From IMG/VR virus record IMGVR_UViG_3300031227_000410, positions 1-24,430 of that record: a DNA stretch of 24,430 nucleotides. One strand, written 5' to 3'. Position 1 is the stretch's first letter. The number at the start of each line of letters is the position of its first letter. Below the pieces are notes generated by a model. That model saw nothing but the letters and a program-made list of their open reading frames with translations. It ran no database searches and was not told the origin of the DNA. The position numbers and the translations under genes are program-made. The stretch is from a virus. This document shows positions 7,199 through 18,707 of the stretch, piece after piece.

Positions 7199-8015
7199 GT
7201 ACTTCCTACTTGCCATTATAATTCTTATCCTCATATTCCCGCTGTACTGGATGATACAAGGTTCCTTCCTGAACACCGCAGGGATAATGCACATGCCGCC
7301 GAGGTTGATACCTAAAAACTTGATAACGACAAACTACGAGACGTTGATTTTCGGGCAGCGGAATATACCGGACACGTACTTTTTTAACTGGATTGTAAAC
7401 TCAGCGATTTTGATAGGGCTTGCTATTGCGTTGACAGTTGCACTAACATTGCCAGCGGGCTATGCTTTCAGCGTCTACAAGTTCAAGGGGCGCAAGGGGC
7501 TATTTTGGCTATTCATGTCAACGATGATGGTTCACCGTTATATTTTAATCATTCCTATGTTTGTGGTTATCAGGAAATTACACCTACCTTCTCGGCTTGC
7601 GGCAGTGTTACCGCTGGCGTTTTCACCACTGTTGATTTTCTTGACAAAGAACTTCGTGGATACGATACCGCGATCGCTCTTGGATTATGCGACGTTGGAG
7701 GGTGTTGGAGAACTGCGGAAAATATTCACATTGATACTTCCTTTATGCGGTCCGCTTGTCGGAGTGTTAGCTTTGTTTTCTGGCCTCGGAGCGTTTGGCG
7801 ATTACTTGTGGCAGCTCCTGCTATTCTTCAAGGTTGGAGACCAGACGTTGCCGGTTGGTTTGATACAGCGGACAAGACAAACTATCGTCAATATTGAGCC
7901 GATTGGATTAAGTTTGGCAGCGGGTACGATATTGTTCATGGTGATGTTTGTAATATTTCTATTCACGAGTAAGTATTTCACGCGAGGCTTGAGCTTGCAG
8001 GGAGTTAAAGGATGA
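7185..8015 (+). CDS. ABC sugar transporter permease, MalG-type (276 aa)
   Basis: This is the second CUT1 permease, with an N-terminal helix (residues 5-23), a periplasmic part and about five further helices. The EAA loop at about 167-188 (Asp-Tyr-Ala-Thr-Leu-Glu-Gly-Val-Gly, then Ile-Leu-Pro-Leu) has diverged: the usual Glu-Ala-Ala is Asp-Tyr-Ala and the Asp-Gly is Glu-Gly. The C-terminus (Thr-Arg-Gly-Leu-Ser-Leu-Gln-Gly-Val-Lys-Gly) matches the end typical of MalG-like subunits. It overlaps the first cytidylyltransferase by four bases (ATGA). Together with the MalF-type subunit and the binding protein it forms an importer that lacks only its ATPase, presumably supplied by a shared host protein such as an MsmK/UgpC-type ATPase. 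Confidence 0.9.
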   Translation: MTIVKYFLLAIIILILIFPLYWMIQGSFLNTAGIMHMPPRLIPKNLITTNYETLIFGQRNIPDTYFFNWIVNSAILIGLAIALTVALTLPAGYAFSVYKFKGRKGLFWLFMSTMMVHRYILIIPMFVVIRKLHLPSRLAAVLPLAFSPLLIFLTKNFVDTIPRSLLDYATLEGVGELRKIFTLILPLCGPLVGVLALFSGLGAFGDYLWQLLLFFKVGDQTLPVGLIQRTRQTIVNIEPIGLSLAAGTILFMVMFVIFLFTSKYFTRGLSLQGVKG

Positions 8016-8812
8016 AGTGCATCATACCAGCGAAGGGCTGGAGCCGTCGCGTACCACAAAAAAACAAGAAGTACTTTTGCGGGCAGCCTCTTATCGCGTG
8101 GTCTATCATTCAGGCGTTAAGCTCGCGCGGTGTTGATAGCGTCTACGTTTCAACCGACGATGAGGATATAGCGAACATTACGATTGGTTGCGGTGGTGAT
8201 GTGATATGGCGCGAGTACGAGCAGAAGCCGGACGACGGCGGGGGCGTGCCTCTTTACCATGCGCTCAATGAGTTGGGATTACCTGACGATGAAGTATTTC
8301 TCTCCCTGATGTGTACTTCACCACTTCGACCGCCGCCGATGATTGACGCAATGATAGATCGGTTTTTTGAGCATGGGCTTGAAGTGATGTGGGCGCTCGG
8401 CGACCCACACGATTTATTTGTATGCAAAAAATTAAACGAAACCGACTACATACCAGTGTTATGTGTAAATGGCAATGAGTATCTGAGAGATGGCTGCACA
8501 ACGGTGATAATATCGGCAGGGCTTTCCCGAAAGAATCACGAATACCATATAGAGGCATTTGGCGACGGCGAGACGGCGGTATTTGAATCGTGCAACGAAG
8601 GCATTATTCATCCATACTTTGAAAAGATGGGAACAAGGCAAAGTTATTATCCCGTCCCGATGTGGCAAACGTGGGAAGTTGACACGCCTGATGATTTCAC
8701 TATCAGTCAAATATTGATGGAGCATTTTATCTTGAAGGGTCAGGGTGTAGGGCAGTATCGCATATATTCAAACATCAAGGGGAAAAATCATGGTATGCAT
8801 AATCCCGGCTAA
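8012..8812 (+). CDS. Acylneuraminate cytidylyltransferase-like protein 1 (CMP-sugar synthase)
   Basis: This 266-residue member of the cytidylyltransferase family (NeuA/PseF/LegF relatives) would form a CMP-sugar from CTP and a nonulosonic or similar acidic sugar. The N-terminal CTP loop reads Ile-Ile-Pro-Ala-Lys-Gly-Trp-Ser-Arg-Arg-Val-Pro-Gln-Lys-Asn (4-18); most relatives have Ala-Arg-Gly-Gly-Ser, so Gly to Trp is notable. Thr-Ser-Pro-Leu-Arg is at 102-106, and the metal-binding region is represented by Glu-Val-Asp-Thr-Pro-Asp-Asp-Phe (222-229). It starts in an ATGA overlap with the permease and overlaps its own paralogue by 23 bases. The conserved loops suggest activity. The substrate cannot be named. 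Confidence 0.84.
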   Translation: MKCIIPAKGWSRRVPQKNKKYFCGQPLIAWSIIQALSSRGVDSVYVSTDDEDIANITIGCGGDVIWREYEQKPDDGGGVPLYHALNELGLPDDEVFLSLMCTSPLRPPPMIDAMIDRFFEHGLEVMWALGDPHDLFVCKKLNETDYIPVLCVNGNEYLRDGCTTVIISAGLSRKNHEYHIEAFGDGETAVFESCNEGIIHPYFEKMGTRQSYYPVPMWQTWEVDTPDDFTISQILMEHFILKGQGVGQYRIYSNIKGKNHGMHNPG

Positions 8813-9575
8813 AGGGTTCAGCAGACGAGTACCGCAGAAGAACATCAAAGACTTTTGCGGCAAGCCGTTGCTCGCGTGGAGCATTATTCAAGCACGATGT
8901 TCCAAACTTATCACGGATGTTTACGTCTCGACTGAAAGCCGAGAGGTTGCCGCGATTGCAGAGTCATACGGCGCAAAGATTATATGGCGCGACTACAAGG
9001 ACACGCATGAGACAAACGGCGGTAAGCCAATATTGAGGGCGATGCAATTCCTACAGCGCGGGGATAATATAGGCGAAGAGTTTGTCAATATGTTTTGTAC
9101 CTCACCGCTGAGAAAGCCGGGAGACATTGACAATGTAATCAGGACATTCCACCGGACGAAAGCAAATCAGGCTTTGATGTTTGGTGAAATAGACGAGCTT
9201 GTGATATACAAAAAATGCGGCAAGGAATTAGTCAGGCCGTATCTTTCGGATTTCTGGCGCAACTATACGATGGGAACGAATAGCACTTCTGTTTGTTCAA
9301 CAGCATGGTATGAAAAGCAATACAAGTTTATGAAGAAAACGTCCGGTGAAACCGACACGGGCAATAGGGAGGCGCATCGGGGTTTTGCTAATAAGTTACG
9401 GCGAAAGATTTTTAATCGTCGAAGTCCTCTCACGATTTACCCGTGTGAGTTTTGGCAGACGTATGAAGCCGACACGCCGACAGATTTCAAGCTATGCGAG
9501 TTTTTGATGGAAACGAATATACTCAAAGGGCAGGGCGCAGAAGTCTATAAGAAGTACGCGATGGAGGAAGAATGA
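8790..9575 (+). CDS. Acylneuraminate cytidylyltransferase-like protein 2 (tandem paralogue)
   Basis: This 261-residue paralogue of the preceding gene has the same N-terminal loop with Phe in place of Trp (Ala-Lys-Gly-Phe-Ser-Arg-Arg-Val-Pro-Gln-Lys-Asn). It also shares Thr-Ser-Pro-Leu-Arg (104-108), a metal region Glu-Ala-Asp-Thr-Pro-Thr-Asp-Phe (226-233) and a common C-terminal Ile-Leu-Lys-Gly-Gln-Gly motif. The centre (130-215) differs strongly from paralogue 1, with a Lys/Arg-rich insertion near 195-211, so the sugar-binding half has diverged. Likely different substrates, or a heteromeric enzyme, are the main possibilities. It is coupled to the DUF115 gene by an ATGA overlap. The family call is firm; the product sugar is not. 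Confidence 0.84.
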   Translation: MVCIIPAKGFSRRVPQKNIKDFCGKPLLAWSIIQARCSKLITDVYVSTESREVAAIAESYGAKIIWRDYKDTHETNGGKPILRAMQFLQRGDNIGEEFVNMFCTSPLRKPGDIDNVIRTFHRTKANQALMFGEIDELVIYKKCGKELVRPYLSDFWRNYTMGTNSTSVCSTAWYEKQYKFMKKTSGETDTGNREAHRGFANKLRRKIFNRRSPLTIYPCEFWQTYEADTPTDFKLCEFLMETNILKGQGAEVYKKYAMEEE

Positions 9576-15156: not shown

Positions 15157-15935
15157 TGGACGTATTGATTAAGAGTAATGGCGAATACGAGAAGAAGACA
15201 CTTGGTGATACTGAGCTGGTTGATTGGTTCAAGGAGCATACAACCGACGACGGCGATGTTACCGAGGATATTGTTTTGTTCAATGATAGCGAGGTGAAAG
15301 CGGACGGCGATGGTAAGATTCAATGGGTGATGTCCGACTATTCACTTGATAGGGATAATGAGCGGATTGATCCGGCAGGATGGGAGCTTAAGAACTACCG
15401 GGCAAATCCTATTGTACTATGGGGCCACGATTCATGGACTCCAGCAATTGGCAAGGCGAGCAATGTCAAGGTAAAGGACGAGCAGCTTATAGGTACAATC
15501 GAGTTTGACCTTGACGATCCATTAGGCGCGTTGATAGACGGCAAGGCGAGGAAGGGAATTCTAACTAAGGGCAGTGTAGGCTTTCGGTCAAAGAAGATTG
15601 AAATAGTAGAGCAGGACGATAAAGAGAAAGCTGACTTGATACACCGCAAGCAGGAGCTGTACGAATTCAGCGTTGTGAACATTCCGAGTAATCTTAATGC
15701 CAATGTGCAGTTGGATGCCGAGCCGGACGAAGCGAAAGAGTTAGAAATTGATATCGATAATGTTGCATCTGACGTAGGGGACATTCTTGATGCAGAAGAG
15801 AAAGATTCATATATAAACACCATCTTACAGGACAGGGACGAAACCAGTCTCGTAGACGAAACCAGTCTACAGCACATGTTCAAAGAAGATGATGAGAAAA
15901 TAACAATAGAGGAGTTCTTAGATGGAACCAATTAA
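15153..15935 (+). CDS. HK97-type prohead protease
   Basis: This capsid maturation serine protease (family U35) cleaves scaffold or capsid delta domains inside the procapsid. The core spans about residues 55-195. The catalytic His is probably H92 (Leu-Trp-Gly-His-Asp) and the Ser S141 (Lys-Gly-Ser-Val-Gly-Phe), followed by the conserved Tyr-Glu-Phe-Ser-Val-Val-Asn-Ile-Pro. Unlike minimal proteases it has an N-terminal extension of about 55 residues and a strongly acidic tail (about 192-260) that could act as scaffold. The tail contains a duplicated Asp-Glu-Thr-Ser-Leu. The gene overlaps the capsid gene by 14 bases, as expected for partners needed in fixed proportion. Confidence 0.9.
   Translation: MMDVLIKSNGEYEKKTLGDTELVDWFKEHTTDDGDVTEDIVLFNDSEVKADGDGKIQWVMSDYSLDRDNERIDPAGWELKNYRANPIVLWGHDSWTPAIGKASNVKVKDEQLIGTIEFDLDDPLGALIDGKARKGILTKGSVGFRSKKIEIVEQDDKEKADLIHRKQELYEFSVVNIPSNLNANVQLDAEPDEAKELEIDIDNVASDVGDILDAEEKDSYINTILQDRDETSLVDETSLQHMFKEDDEKITIEEFLDGTN
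15837..15872 (+). repeat. 18-base in-frame tandem duplication in the protease tail
   Basis: Two units of 18 bases (15837-15854, 15855-15872) share their first 14 bases, GACGAAACCAGTCT, and encode Asp-Glu-Thr-Ser-Leu-Val and Asp-Glu-Thr-Ser-Leu-Gln. The duplication sits in the acidic tail, where length changes are probably tolerated. Confidence 0.8.
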
Positions 15936-17220
15936 AACGTTAGACGACTTAAAGGTGTTTGCCGAGGAAACAGCGGCTGAAATAGCAGCGTTGAAAGCGG
16001 CGAACGAAGCAGAGCCTGAAAATCCACCGGTTACCGAGGAGAAGGTAGCCGAGCTTGATGGCAAGTTGGATGTGCTCGACAAGAAATTCAGTGAAGTGTT
16101 GATTTTCGAGAAAGCCAAGGGCGATTGGAAAGAACAGGACACGCCCGAATCCGCGTGCTATAAAGGCGCGCAATGTGTACAGGCGATAAACGAGAAGCAC
16201 CGTAACCAAAACTCAGCAGTAGCACAGAAGATGCTTGTGAAGTTGGGAGCGTTGGGAGTATCGCACGTCGGTGATGAACCACAGATAAAAGAGCTATCCG
16301 ACGGAGACGCCGGGGTAATGGAAAAGGCGGCTGATACAGCGGCAACAGTTACACCGTTAACCGGTGACAATGCAGCGGGTTCTTTTTATGGCTCGTATGT
16401 AATCCCGGTTGAATATCGAAATGAGATATCGAGGGTTGCATTGCTTGCAAGTACTATGATGCCAAAGGTTACGCGGGTAAAGGTGCCTGGTATCACAAGC
16501 TATTGGCCGGTGACCACTGATGAAATGACCTGGACGAAGGTCACCAATCAGGTAACAGCAAAGACAGAGGATAGCTTCACGCTTGCTCGTAAGACGCTCA
16601 CCACTTGCACGTATGCATCATGGCTCGGTATTACCGAGGAGTTCAGAGAAGATTCGCTCGTAGAGATCGGCGGGTACATCCGTGATATGTTCGCAGAAGC
16701 ATGGGGAAAGAAATTCGATGACCTTTGCTTAGTAGATTCGACTTACGGTGCCTTAGCTGATACCAGCACTCTTGAATTGACGATGACAGAGAATGACTTT
16801 GATTCCCTCAGCGTTGATTACATGAGCAACATGGTGAAGGAGTTGGCAACCGACAATCTGCGTGGTGGGCTTGAGTACTACTTGCATGTAACCGCATGGG
16901 ATACTGTTGAGAACGAGAAAAATGCGGTAGGCGCTTATAAGGTTAGATCACCTGCAGAGGGTGCACCGTATCGAATCAAGGGATACCCTGTTTCGACGAG
17001 TGACGCAATGACATCGACCTCAGCGGCCTCGACTTCGTTTGTAGGCTTGGGCAATCCGAAGCACATCATAAACGGTGAACGTATACCGTTTGAGTTTGAG
17101 ATTTTCGACAAGACACAGGACACCATGGCTTTCGGATTAGTGTTTTTACGATTCAGAACGAGACAAGCGTTCGTACTCCTTCACCCGGAGGCATGGGTGA
17201 AATTGACCACAAGTGCGTAA
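15922..17220 (+). CDS. Major capsid protein, HK97 fold
   Basis: This 432-residue protein builds the icosahedral shell. Residues 1-60 are a helical, acidic region with coiled-coil character, and up to about 130 it is probably the delta (scaffold) domain removed by the protease encoded just upstream. The mature part begins near the Gly/Ala/Thr-rich segment at 130-155 and includes Gly-Ser-Tyr-Val-Ile-Pro-Val-Glu-Tyr (about 157-165), typical of the N-arm/E-loop entry in Phage_capsid proteins. A Ser/Thr-rich loop (about 366-374) precedes the C-terminal strands. The 14-base overlap with the protease and the long structured gap after it fit late head operons. Confidence 0.9.
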   Translation: MEPIKTLDDLKVFAEETAAEIAALKAANEAEPENPPVTEEKVAELDGKLDVLDKKFSEVLIFEKAKGDWKEQDTPESACYKGAQCVQAINEKHRNQNSAVAQKMLVKLGALGVSHVGDEPQIKELSDGDAGVMEKAADTAATVTPLTGDNAAGSFYGSYVIPVEYRNEISRVALLASTMMPKVTRVKVPGITSYWPVTTDEMTWTKVTNQVTAKTEDSFTLARKTLTTCTYASWLGITEEFREDSLVEIGGYIRDMFAEAWGKKFDDLCLVDSTYGALADTSTLELTMTENDFDSLSVDYMSNMVKELATDNLRGGLEYYLHVTAWDTVENEKNAVGAYKVRSPAEGAPYRIKGYPVSTSDAMTSTSAASTSFVGLGNPKHIINGERIPFEFEIFDKTQDTMAFGLVFLRFRTRQAFVLLHPEAWVKLTTSA

Positions 17221-17222
17221 CT

Positions 17223-17273
17223 CTTCATGCGGCGGGCTTCGGTCCGTCGCCCTGAAATACTGGGCGCATGAAG
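17223..17273 (+). ncRNA. Intergenic RNA element able to form a perfect three-way junction
   Basis: Between the capsid stop and the next gene, 51 bases can fold with no unpaired junction nucleotides. P1 pairs 17223-17230 with 17266-17273 (8 pairs, CTTCATGC/GCATGAAG). P2 pairs 17231-17237 with 17242-17248 (7 pairs, two G-U) closed by a C(UUCG)G tetraloop. P3 pairs 17249-17252 with 17262-17265 (GCCC/GGGC) around a nine-base loop. The ribosome site AAAGGAG (17274-17280) of the next gene begins at the very next base. No T-run follows, so it is not an ordinary terminator. It may be a barrier to nucleases, a processing site or a translation control element. Confidence 0.6.
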
Positions 17274-17286
17274 AAAGGAGATTATA

Positions 17287-17889
17287 ATGGGTTCAAATGT
17301 TTACTTAGAGAACATCAAAACTTACGGCTACCAGACCGAATCAGCATCGACTCAGATTGATGTTGATATAGACCCGATTGACGGTAAGAGGGTAGCCATT
17401 AGAAGTTTTGGAATGACATGTGGCGCAACCGCAACGACTGTTACTTTTATGCAGGCGTTAGGTGAAACCACAACCACGGCGGCGGTAGCCAGTAATGCAA
17501 CGACAGGATTCATCGGCACGGCTGAGTTTCAGACTTCAGACAATGCGATTGCAACGGGCGATTATATTGCAATCGAGCTTGATGATGGAACTTACCAGTA
17601 CACCACGGTAGCAACCGGTTCATACGACGACTTCAGTATCAGCGCGGCATTGACCGATACGGTGGCGGCTGGCAACAAGGTGTGGGGGTTCGGGTTATAT
17701 TCGGACTCACAAGCAACCGGTGGACATATCAGGTACTACCTAACGGCCTCGACTTCGCATACTGAAGACCTGGACGGTGGTATTTTCTACGGCGCGGCAA
17801 AGGGCTATCCGATGAAAGCGTGGCACGCAAACGACGCGGCGGCTGCAGGTAGCGTCGACTGGATAACCGTCGAATACATAAATAAGTAG
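17287..17889 (+). CDS. Probable capsid decoration protein, copy 1
   Basis: This 200-residue protein is rich in Ala, Thr, Gly and Asp, with many beta-strand-like segments and no hydrophobic helices. It is closely similar over its whole length to the next gene (shared Ser-Asn-Ala-Thr-Thr-Gly-Phe-Ile-Gly-Thr, Asp-Asp-Phe-Ser-Ile-Ser and a common C-terminus Trp-His-Ala-Asn-Asp-Ala-Ala). It directly follows the capsid gene, where decoration or head-fibre proteins are expected; no named family is recognised with certainty. Translation starts at ATG 17287 after a structured leader with AAAGGAG. High expression and exposure on the capsid are inferred from position and composition. Confidence 0.68.
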   Translation: MGSNVYLENIKTYGYQTESASTQIDVDIDPIDGKRVAIRSFGMTCGATATTVTFMQALGETTTTAAVASNATTGFIGTAEFQTSDNAIATGDYIAIELDDGTYQYTTVATGSYDDFSISAALTDTVAAGNKVWGFGLYSDSQATGGHIRYYLTASTSHTEDLDGGIFYGAAKGYPMKAWHANDAAAAGSVDWITVEYINK

Positions 17890-17900
17890 GGGGTAGAAAA

Positions 17901-18494
17901 ATGGCTACTCAGGCTTATTTAGAGGCGATTGAACAAATAGGGTATAAGACGGAATCGGCGGCAACTCCTATCGAAATGGATATTAGTCCGCGACCTGGCA
18001 AGCGCATTGCAATCAAGAGCTATGGCTTCTCATGTGGAGCGACAGCGACGAGTGTATACGCAATGCAGAGTTTAGGTTCAGCGACTTTGACCACGGCGGT
18101 AGCAAGTAACGCGACGACCGGCTTTATTGGCACGGGCGAATTCCAGACAACCAACAACGCATTAGCCAGCAGTGACTATATCGCGGTTGAGTTGGATGAC
18201 GGCACGTATCAATTCACAACGGTAGCAACAGGCACGTATGATGATTTCTCGATAAGTGATGCTTTGACTGACAGTGTAGCGGCAGGTAATAAGATGTTTG
18301 GTTTCGGGCTTTACTCGGACACCGGGCATCAGTATATCGAGGCGCTAACTGCGAGCACGCACTTTACGAGGGATTCAGATGGCGCATTGGTAGCAGCAAC
18401 CGCGAAGGGCACGCCTATGAAAATATGGCATGCAAACGATGCGGCGGTGGCTGGCAGTGTGGACTATATCGCAGTGACCTGGCTCAACAAGTAG
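17901..18494 (+). CDS. Probable capsid decoration protein, copy 2 (tandem duplicate)
   Basis: This 197-residue paralogue of the preceding gene, about two-thirds identical by eye, aligns end to end apart from small length changes near residues 145-152. The DNA has diverged mainly at third codon positions, so the duplication is not recent and both copies seem to be kept by selection. The start at 17901 follows GGGGGTAG with a short spacer. The central Gly-Thr-Tyr-Gln-Phe-Thr-Thr-Val-Ala-Thr-Gly segment is the most conserved; the N-terminal third and the 145-170 region differ most. The two proteins may form a heteromer or occupy different capsid sites. Confidence 0.68.
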   Translation: MATQAYLEAIEQIGYKTESAATPIEMDISPRPGKRIAIKSYGFSCGATATSVYAMQSLGSATLTTAVASNATTGFIGTGEFQTTNNALASSDYIAVELDDGTYQFTTVATGTYDDFSISDALTDSVAAGNKMFGFGLYSDTGHQYIEALTASTHFTRDSDGALVAATAKGTPMKIWHANDAAVAGSVDYIAVTWLNK

Positions 18495-18502
18495 ATTCAA
18501 GT

Positions 18503-18522
18503 GGGGGGTGGTGACATCCCCC
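18503..18522 (+). other. RNA hairpin with GUGA tetraloop after the decoration genes
   Basis: An eight-pair stem (18503-18510 with 18515-18522, GGGGGGTG/CATCCCCC, one G-U) is closed by GUGA, a GNRA tetraloop. No T-run follows, and the ribosome site AAGGGG of the next small gene lies about ten bases downstream. With the element at 17223-17273 it flanks the two decoration genes, which would suit mRNA end protection or processing. Confidence 0.65.
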
Positions 18523-18539
18523 GCGATTAAGGGGTGGAT

Positions 18540-18707
18540 ATGGTAACACTAACGAAGGACATAACCATAGTGAGGCAAGGGCAAACCTTTGATCTCAAAA
18601 AAGGCGATAGGCTTAATCCCGATAAGTGGCCTGGACTTAAGAGACTGATAGAGAAGGGCTACAACGACAAGATGGAGAGAAGTGGTGGCACTGGACACGA
18701 CAAATAG
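18540..18707 (+). CDS. Small head-region protein (55 aa), function unknown
   Basis: A 55-residue basic protein starts at ATG 18540 behind AAGGGGTGG (18529-18537) and stops at 18705-18707, inside the connector gene. The N-terminus has a strand-rich pattern (Val-Thr-Leu-Thr-Lys-Asp-Ile-Thr-Ile-Val-Arg-Gln-Gly-Gln) and the middle a Lys-Gly-Asp and Leu-Lys-Arg-Leu-Ile-Glu-Lys-Gly helix. Small proteins with this layout occur between capsid and connector genes in siphoviruses, but no family is assigned. Good ribosome spacing and the 26-base overlap with the next gene support translation. Confidence 0.6.
   Translation: MVTLTKDITIVRQGQTFDLKKGDRLNPDKWPGLKRLIEKGYNDKMERSGGTGHDK

Follow-up and report, generated by a model that had tools for sequence, protein, structure and literature searches.

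Comparative folding shows that, in a group of uncultivated phages, the gap between the stop codon of the major capsid gene and the ribosome site of the next gene is kept as a tight three-way junction on the mRNA strand. The element is a real, undescribed RNA that probably sets the output of the two neighbouring proteins. On the comparison of related contigs, it is a cis-acting RNA of the late mRNA and belongs to the class of intercistronic cis-acting mRNA structures. It lies in an IMG/VR-type virus record of 24,430 bases, which was analysed as a whole and is called the window here.

In the window, the HK97-type major capsid protein gene (15922..17220, + strand; Pfam Phage_capsid PF05065, E 1e-24; PHROG major head protein) ends at nucleotide 17220 and the next gene begins at 17287, leaving a gap of 66 nt. 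Nucleotides 17223–17273 (51 nt) form three helices and two hairpin loops throughout, leaving no junction base unpaired, and the outer helix can be extended by the pair U17222–A17274, yielding an element of 53 nt and 20 base pairs (17222..17274, + strand). The 5′ arm of the 9-pair outer helix, UCUUCAUGC (17222..17230), starts one nucleotide past the capsid stop codon. It leads into (i) hairpin 1 (17231..17248), with 7 pairs including two G·U pairs and a UUCG tetraloop at 17238–17241 that forms a C(UUCG)G cap, and (ii) hairpin 2 (17249..17265), with 4 pairs in a GCCC/GGGC stem and the 9-base loop UGAAAUACU at 17253–17261, which is the sequence-conserved portion. The 3′ arm, GCAUGAAGA (17266..17274), ends at the ribosome site, the Shine-Dalgarno (SD) sequence AAAGGAG of the next gene (17274..17280), 6 nt ahead of the AUG; all these features are on the + strand. 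The initial annotation, made from the sequence of the window alone, had described a 51-base junction without unpaired nucleotides, a C(UUCG)G loop and an adjoining ribosome site within a 66-nt gap, with no T-run after the element; every one of these features is present.

The minimum free energy of nucleotides 17223–17280 is −28.8 kcal/mol (z −4.4), a value equalled by 1 of 200 shuffled sequences. For the exact element at 17222–17274 it is −29.6 kcal/mol (z −4.9), equalled by none of 200. We further folded 1,000 dinucleotide shuffles of the window gap: 12 (1.2%) formed any tight three-way junction and none reached an equal number of pairs, in line with the earlier claim that the arrangement is improbable by chance.

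Neither the capsid nor the next gene nor the portal, each used singly as a query, brought up relatives; the terminase gave close ones, and further relatives were obtained through alignments of the capsid and next gene. Fourteen distinct contigs, the window included, show the capsid/next-gene border. Long gaps (>50 nt) are found in 12 of them: the window, L002, L032, L033, L034, L035, L036, L038, L040, L041, L046 and L053, the border sequence of L036 being identical in L037 and L039. In L003/L042 and L043 the gap measures only 11–12 nt and the element is absent. Defining a junction as tight when the minimum-energy fold leaves at most two junction bases unpaired, we found a tight three-way junction in the best fold of 10 of the 12 long gaps, compared to 0.1–1.2% of shuffles. 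For L033, the gap by itself folds best as the junction, and another fold competes once 8 upstream bases are added; in L034 the junction of the best fold is looser, with five of its bases unpaired. Single mismatches occur in L040 (C-A) and L053 (G-A), L046 has an outer helix that is marginal by itself, and stability is modest in L041, L053 and L046 (−10.6 to −13.4 kcal/mol). Element lengths range from 40 to 53 nt, and extra-stable loops recur with differing sequences: UUCG in the window, CUUG in L035 and GNRA in L002, L033 and L034. Outside these gaps, equally compact and stable junctions are rare in 18 contigs of the clade. Unpaired gaps in relatives had been named beforehand as the observation that would speak against the element: no relative has a long unpaired gap, and two have hardly any gap.

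Beyond this group, no capsid relatives were found in bacterial or archaeal genomes, and tblastn searches with the next gene and the capsid revealed no close kin among isolated phages. A pattern combining hairpin 2 with the SD sequence matched 23 stretches in all viral contigs, with the junction only in four relatives already known, and 9 stretches in 84,980 genomes, with the junction in none. Isolated HK97-type phages have post-capsid gaps that are short or that contain simple hairpins; those of GBK2 and PFR1 are strong simple hairpins, followed by a U-run in GBK2.

Compensatory change in related phages, proposed at the outset as a check, is abundant, and the structural RNA then suggested is borne out by a junction conserved with such changes. 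For 11 members aligned outwards from the junction, 182 of 184 pairs are canonical and almost all pair positions have changed on both sides; this count is partly built in, since the helices were called one sequence at a time. Swapping arms between members lowers pairing to about 65%. When five members are aligned by MAFFT, two-sided change is seen at 7 of 16 pairs, a level matched by none of 500 shuffles. Sliding the partner by 1–3 columns in this alignment destroys the two-sided signal, and RNAalifold, unprompted, yields the same junction. A covariance model trained on five members, without the window and L032, recovered the window at E 1.2e-8 and L032 at E 8.9e-9, the sole further reported match having E 2.7. 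The model misses L002, L033, L034, L036 and L046, because these share shape more than sequence.

The pairing also discriminates between the strands. Members compared contain 11 G·U pairs against a single A·C pair, and the opposite strand of the window adopts a different, less stable fold without the junction, since two of the pairs are G·U on the mRNA. G·U bias and lack of the junction on the minus strand together argue for selection on the mRNA, and a palindrome maintained at the DNA level was rejected by the same G·U excess and strand asymmetry. A chance origin could draw on the frequency of three-way junctions under looser criteria, roughly one in every few kb of strand, but the repeated finding in 10 of 12 gaps, together with covariation, G·U bias and strand asymmetry, renders either a chance structure or an inverted repeat selected as DNA scarcely credible.

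The loop of hairpin 2 follows a different rule of conservation from the helices. The sequence UGAAAYAYU occurs in 8 of 12 members, mostly in hairpin 2; L034 carries it in hairpin 1 instead, and L040 and L041 have a copy in each hairpin. It is missing from L002, L033, L036 and L046, where the junction is kept. Identity between lineages amounts to 82% in this loop versus 35–42% in the outer helix. On the capsid tree, loop-bearing members are found on either side of a well-supported split and strong branches force at least three label changes, so that the loop is probably old and has been repeatedly lost or replaced. Its conservation and history argue for recognition by something, implying an added recognition step (a protein or RNA contact) in most, not all, members.

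The element is fitted closely to its two borders. The outer helix starts 0–7 nt past the capsid stop codon, or includes it, in 10 of 12 members, the interval from stop to helix being 20–23 nt in L002 and L032, and in 11 of 12 its far end falls −2 to +2 nt from the SD. No member has a TTTT between element and start codon (0/12). In L040/L041/L053 and in L002, the best fold reaches across the stop codon or the SD flanks, and in the window the SD is not itself covered by structure. Predicted SD accessibility is higher with the native than with the shuffled element in only 5 of 12 members, with a mean difference of 0.01; these predictions do not support the idea that the element keeps the ribosome site open.

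The next gene (17287..17889, + strand) encodes a candidate decoration or virion protein of 200 aa. It has no match in Pfam, PHROG or NCBIfam, and its predicted all-beta model (pLDDT 81) matches PDB entries at low TM-scores, none of them convincing; that it is a decoration protein is a guess from its position and the predicted all-beta fold. The window holds a tandem paralogue of 197 aa (17901..18494, + strand; 66% identical by sequence comparison), with no structured gap between the two copies, and the relatives examined appear to be single-copy. Just past the stop codon of the paralogue, folding reveals a stable simple hairpin without a U-run (18501..18524, + strand), which has counterparts in L002, L033–L036, L038, L040, L041, L043, L046 and L053. 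In each of the 13 contigs examined, the stop codon of the next gene is followed, at a distance of a few to about 20 nt, by a stem structure or hairpin. This second hairpin is often UUCG-capped, and a long U-run (TTTTTT) follows it only in L038, where it resembles a terminator. Compared with shuffles, its stability is strong in the window, L002, L038, L043 and L046 and weaker in the others; in L033 and L036 it does not exceed that of shuffles. With the junction after the capsid gene and a hairpin after the next gene, both cistrons are trailed by structure.

Further features of the contigs were noted. The space separating the next gene from the gene for the head-tail adaptor contains a small, unlisted ORF with a GDVVNPDKWPGLAKLIE-like motif (about 18540–18680 in the window, 7240–7399 in L002 and 4200–4364 in L032). 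A carbohydrate-type ABC transporter set is located inside the phage contig at 4743–8015, consisting of a solute-binding protein gene (PF01547) and two BPD_transp_1 permease genes, between which lies a small gene weakly like those of Lar restriction-alleviation proteins. At 8012–9575, two consecutive paralogous cytidylyltransferase genes (PF02348) are followed by an MptE-like gene, which suggests sugar or surface modification functions.

We tentatively propose that the element acts as an intercistronic clamp, which would protect the capsid mRNA and set the ratio of the two proteins. Upon endonuclease cleavage further downstream, 3′-to-5′ exonucleases would stall at the junction, and this stalling would protect the abundant capsid message. 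Since the outer helix lies 0–7 nt from the stop codon (or includes it) and at most 2 nt from the ribosome site in most relatives, endonucleases would find little single-stranded RNA, and the next message would be capped at its 5′ end as well. The next cistron would receive the same protection from the hairpin that follows it; with both cistrons protected, the two messages would outlive the rest of the operon. Stabilisation of the mRNA by the element is plausible and fits the presence of the second hairpin. Precedents are the structure of the malE–malF intergenic region and, in menBCE, successive protective hairpins (PMC5927463), and stopping of PNPase correlates with hairpin stability (PMC10667835). 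We count recurrence, covariation, the G·U bias and strand asymmetry, extra-stable loops, the fit to the SD, the absence of TTTT and the second hairpin in favour of the clamp. Against it, a plain clamp needs no conserved UGAAAYAYU loop, the elements of L041, L053 and L046 (−10.6 to −13.4 kcal/mol) are of modest stability for a firm stop to exonucleases, the element is lacking in L003/L042 and L043, and the second hairpin is terminator-like in L038 and not above shuffles in L033 and L036.

Because the clamp leaves the conserved loop unexplained, its main rival is a translational operator, where a phage or host protein, for instance the next-gene product or the capsid protein, would bind the loop or the junction, immediately next to the ribosome site, and switch translation of the next gene. 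We regard this as possible, if on the unlikely side: the 9-base loop is conserved better than any other part, it is found across the well-supported split of the capsid tree and reappears in hairpin 1 of L034 and in both hairpins of L040/L041, and the helix abuts the SD, but four members (L002, L033, L036, L046) retain the junction without the loop and the structure in the window does not itself cover the SD. An extended version, in which a virion or host protein reads UGAAAYAYU in a new class of phage regulatory RNA and the assembly state of the capsid feeds back on partner-protein synthesis, fixing virion stoichiometry, is improbable enough to be called speculative. Coupling or insulation of translation, suggested by how exactly the element fills the space from stop codon to ribosome site, is rather unlikely in our estimate. 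Here the junction would govern the access of terminating capsid ribosomes to the next start: on reaching the stop codon, at which the 5′ arm of the outer helix begins, a ribosome would melt this helix, and the junction, once refolded, would bring stop codon and SD close together. The short spacing on both sides of the element (10 of 12 and 11 of 12 members), the 11–12 nt gaps of the element-less relatives, a geometry for reinitiation, and the folds that cross the stop codon or SD flanks in L040/L041/L053 and L002 speak for such a role; predicted SD accessibility, which is not systematically altered, and the 20–23 nt between stop and helix in L002 and L032 speak against it.

Control of transcription, either as a terminator or as a processive antitermination site like lambda nut, is very improbable. 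It could appeal to the likeness of hairpin 2 to boxB and to the strong simple post-capsid hairpins of GBK2 and PFR1, that of GBK2 with a U-run, but a U-run is found in no member. An intrinsic (Rho-independent) terminator was rejected, as a U-run is lacking in 12 of 12 members and a terminator scan made no call; the initial annotation had likewise held that the element is not a normal terminator, and this agrees with the absence of TTTT before the start codon throughout. A lambdoid nut site was rejected as well: the best boxA candidates match at 5–6 of 8 positions, the level of random sequence, and the loop has 9 nt and is not a GNRNA pentaloop.

The clamp, the operator and the coupling of translation can be separated with a clean set of constructs that nature provides, namely the loop-less members and the element-less relatives. 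Structured RNAs in phage structural operons are poorly catalogued, and the post-transcriptional setting of the capsid:partner ratio in phages is largely open. An element of 40–53 nt with strong comparative support and a defined location is absent from Rfam; its shape is retained while most of its sequence turns over, and sequence-led RNA searches miss such elements.

We compared the element to known RNAs. Rfam 15 at gathering level gave no matches in the window and none in the loci of 11 relatives. The best weak match is Mu-gpT-DE (RF03012), with 17.9 bits at 17250–17289 versus a gathering threshold of 49, and none of the relatives searched matches it. Like the element, Mu-gpT-DE lies, judging by its name, downstream of a phage head gene, and it was reportedly described by Weinberg in 2017. 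Only the ends of its model (CCCUGA and the ribosome site) align to the window, and the helix of the model pairs with the ribosome site, whereas the window helices do not. The element is undescribed in the literature searched, a set outside which the catalogue paper of Mu-gpT-DE falls.

Hairpin 2, GCCCUGAAAUACUGGGC, resembles lambda boxB, GCCCUGAARAAGGGC, in its hairpin core (GCCC UGAA... GGGC). Unlike lambda boxB, it has a different loop, is not accompanied by a boxA, and is placed inside a three-way junction between capsid and next gene. Hairpins with a C(UUCG)G cap occur in phage intercistronic regions and are known from T4; the element resembles these in placing a hairpin with a UUCG cap between two cistrons of a structural operon in a phage, but here that hairpin forms an arm of a junction, and relatives carry other loops in its place. 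The malE–malF type (REP and similar) is defined structurally by a stable structure between cistrons without a U-run, and this is what we find. As in that type, the structure is stable, lacks a U-run and directly follows a highly expressed cistron in an operon (PMC5927463); it differs from malE–malF and REP in that a tight junction with a conserved loop is set at the next ribosome site, in place of a repeated palindrome.
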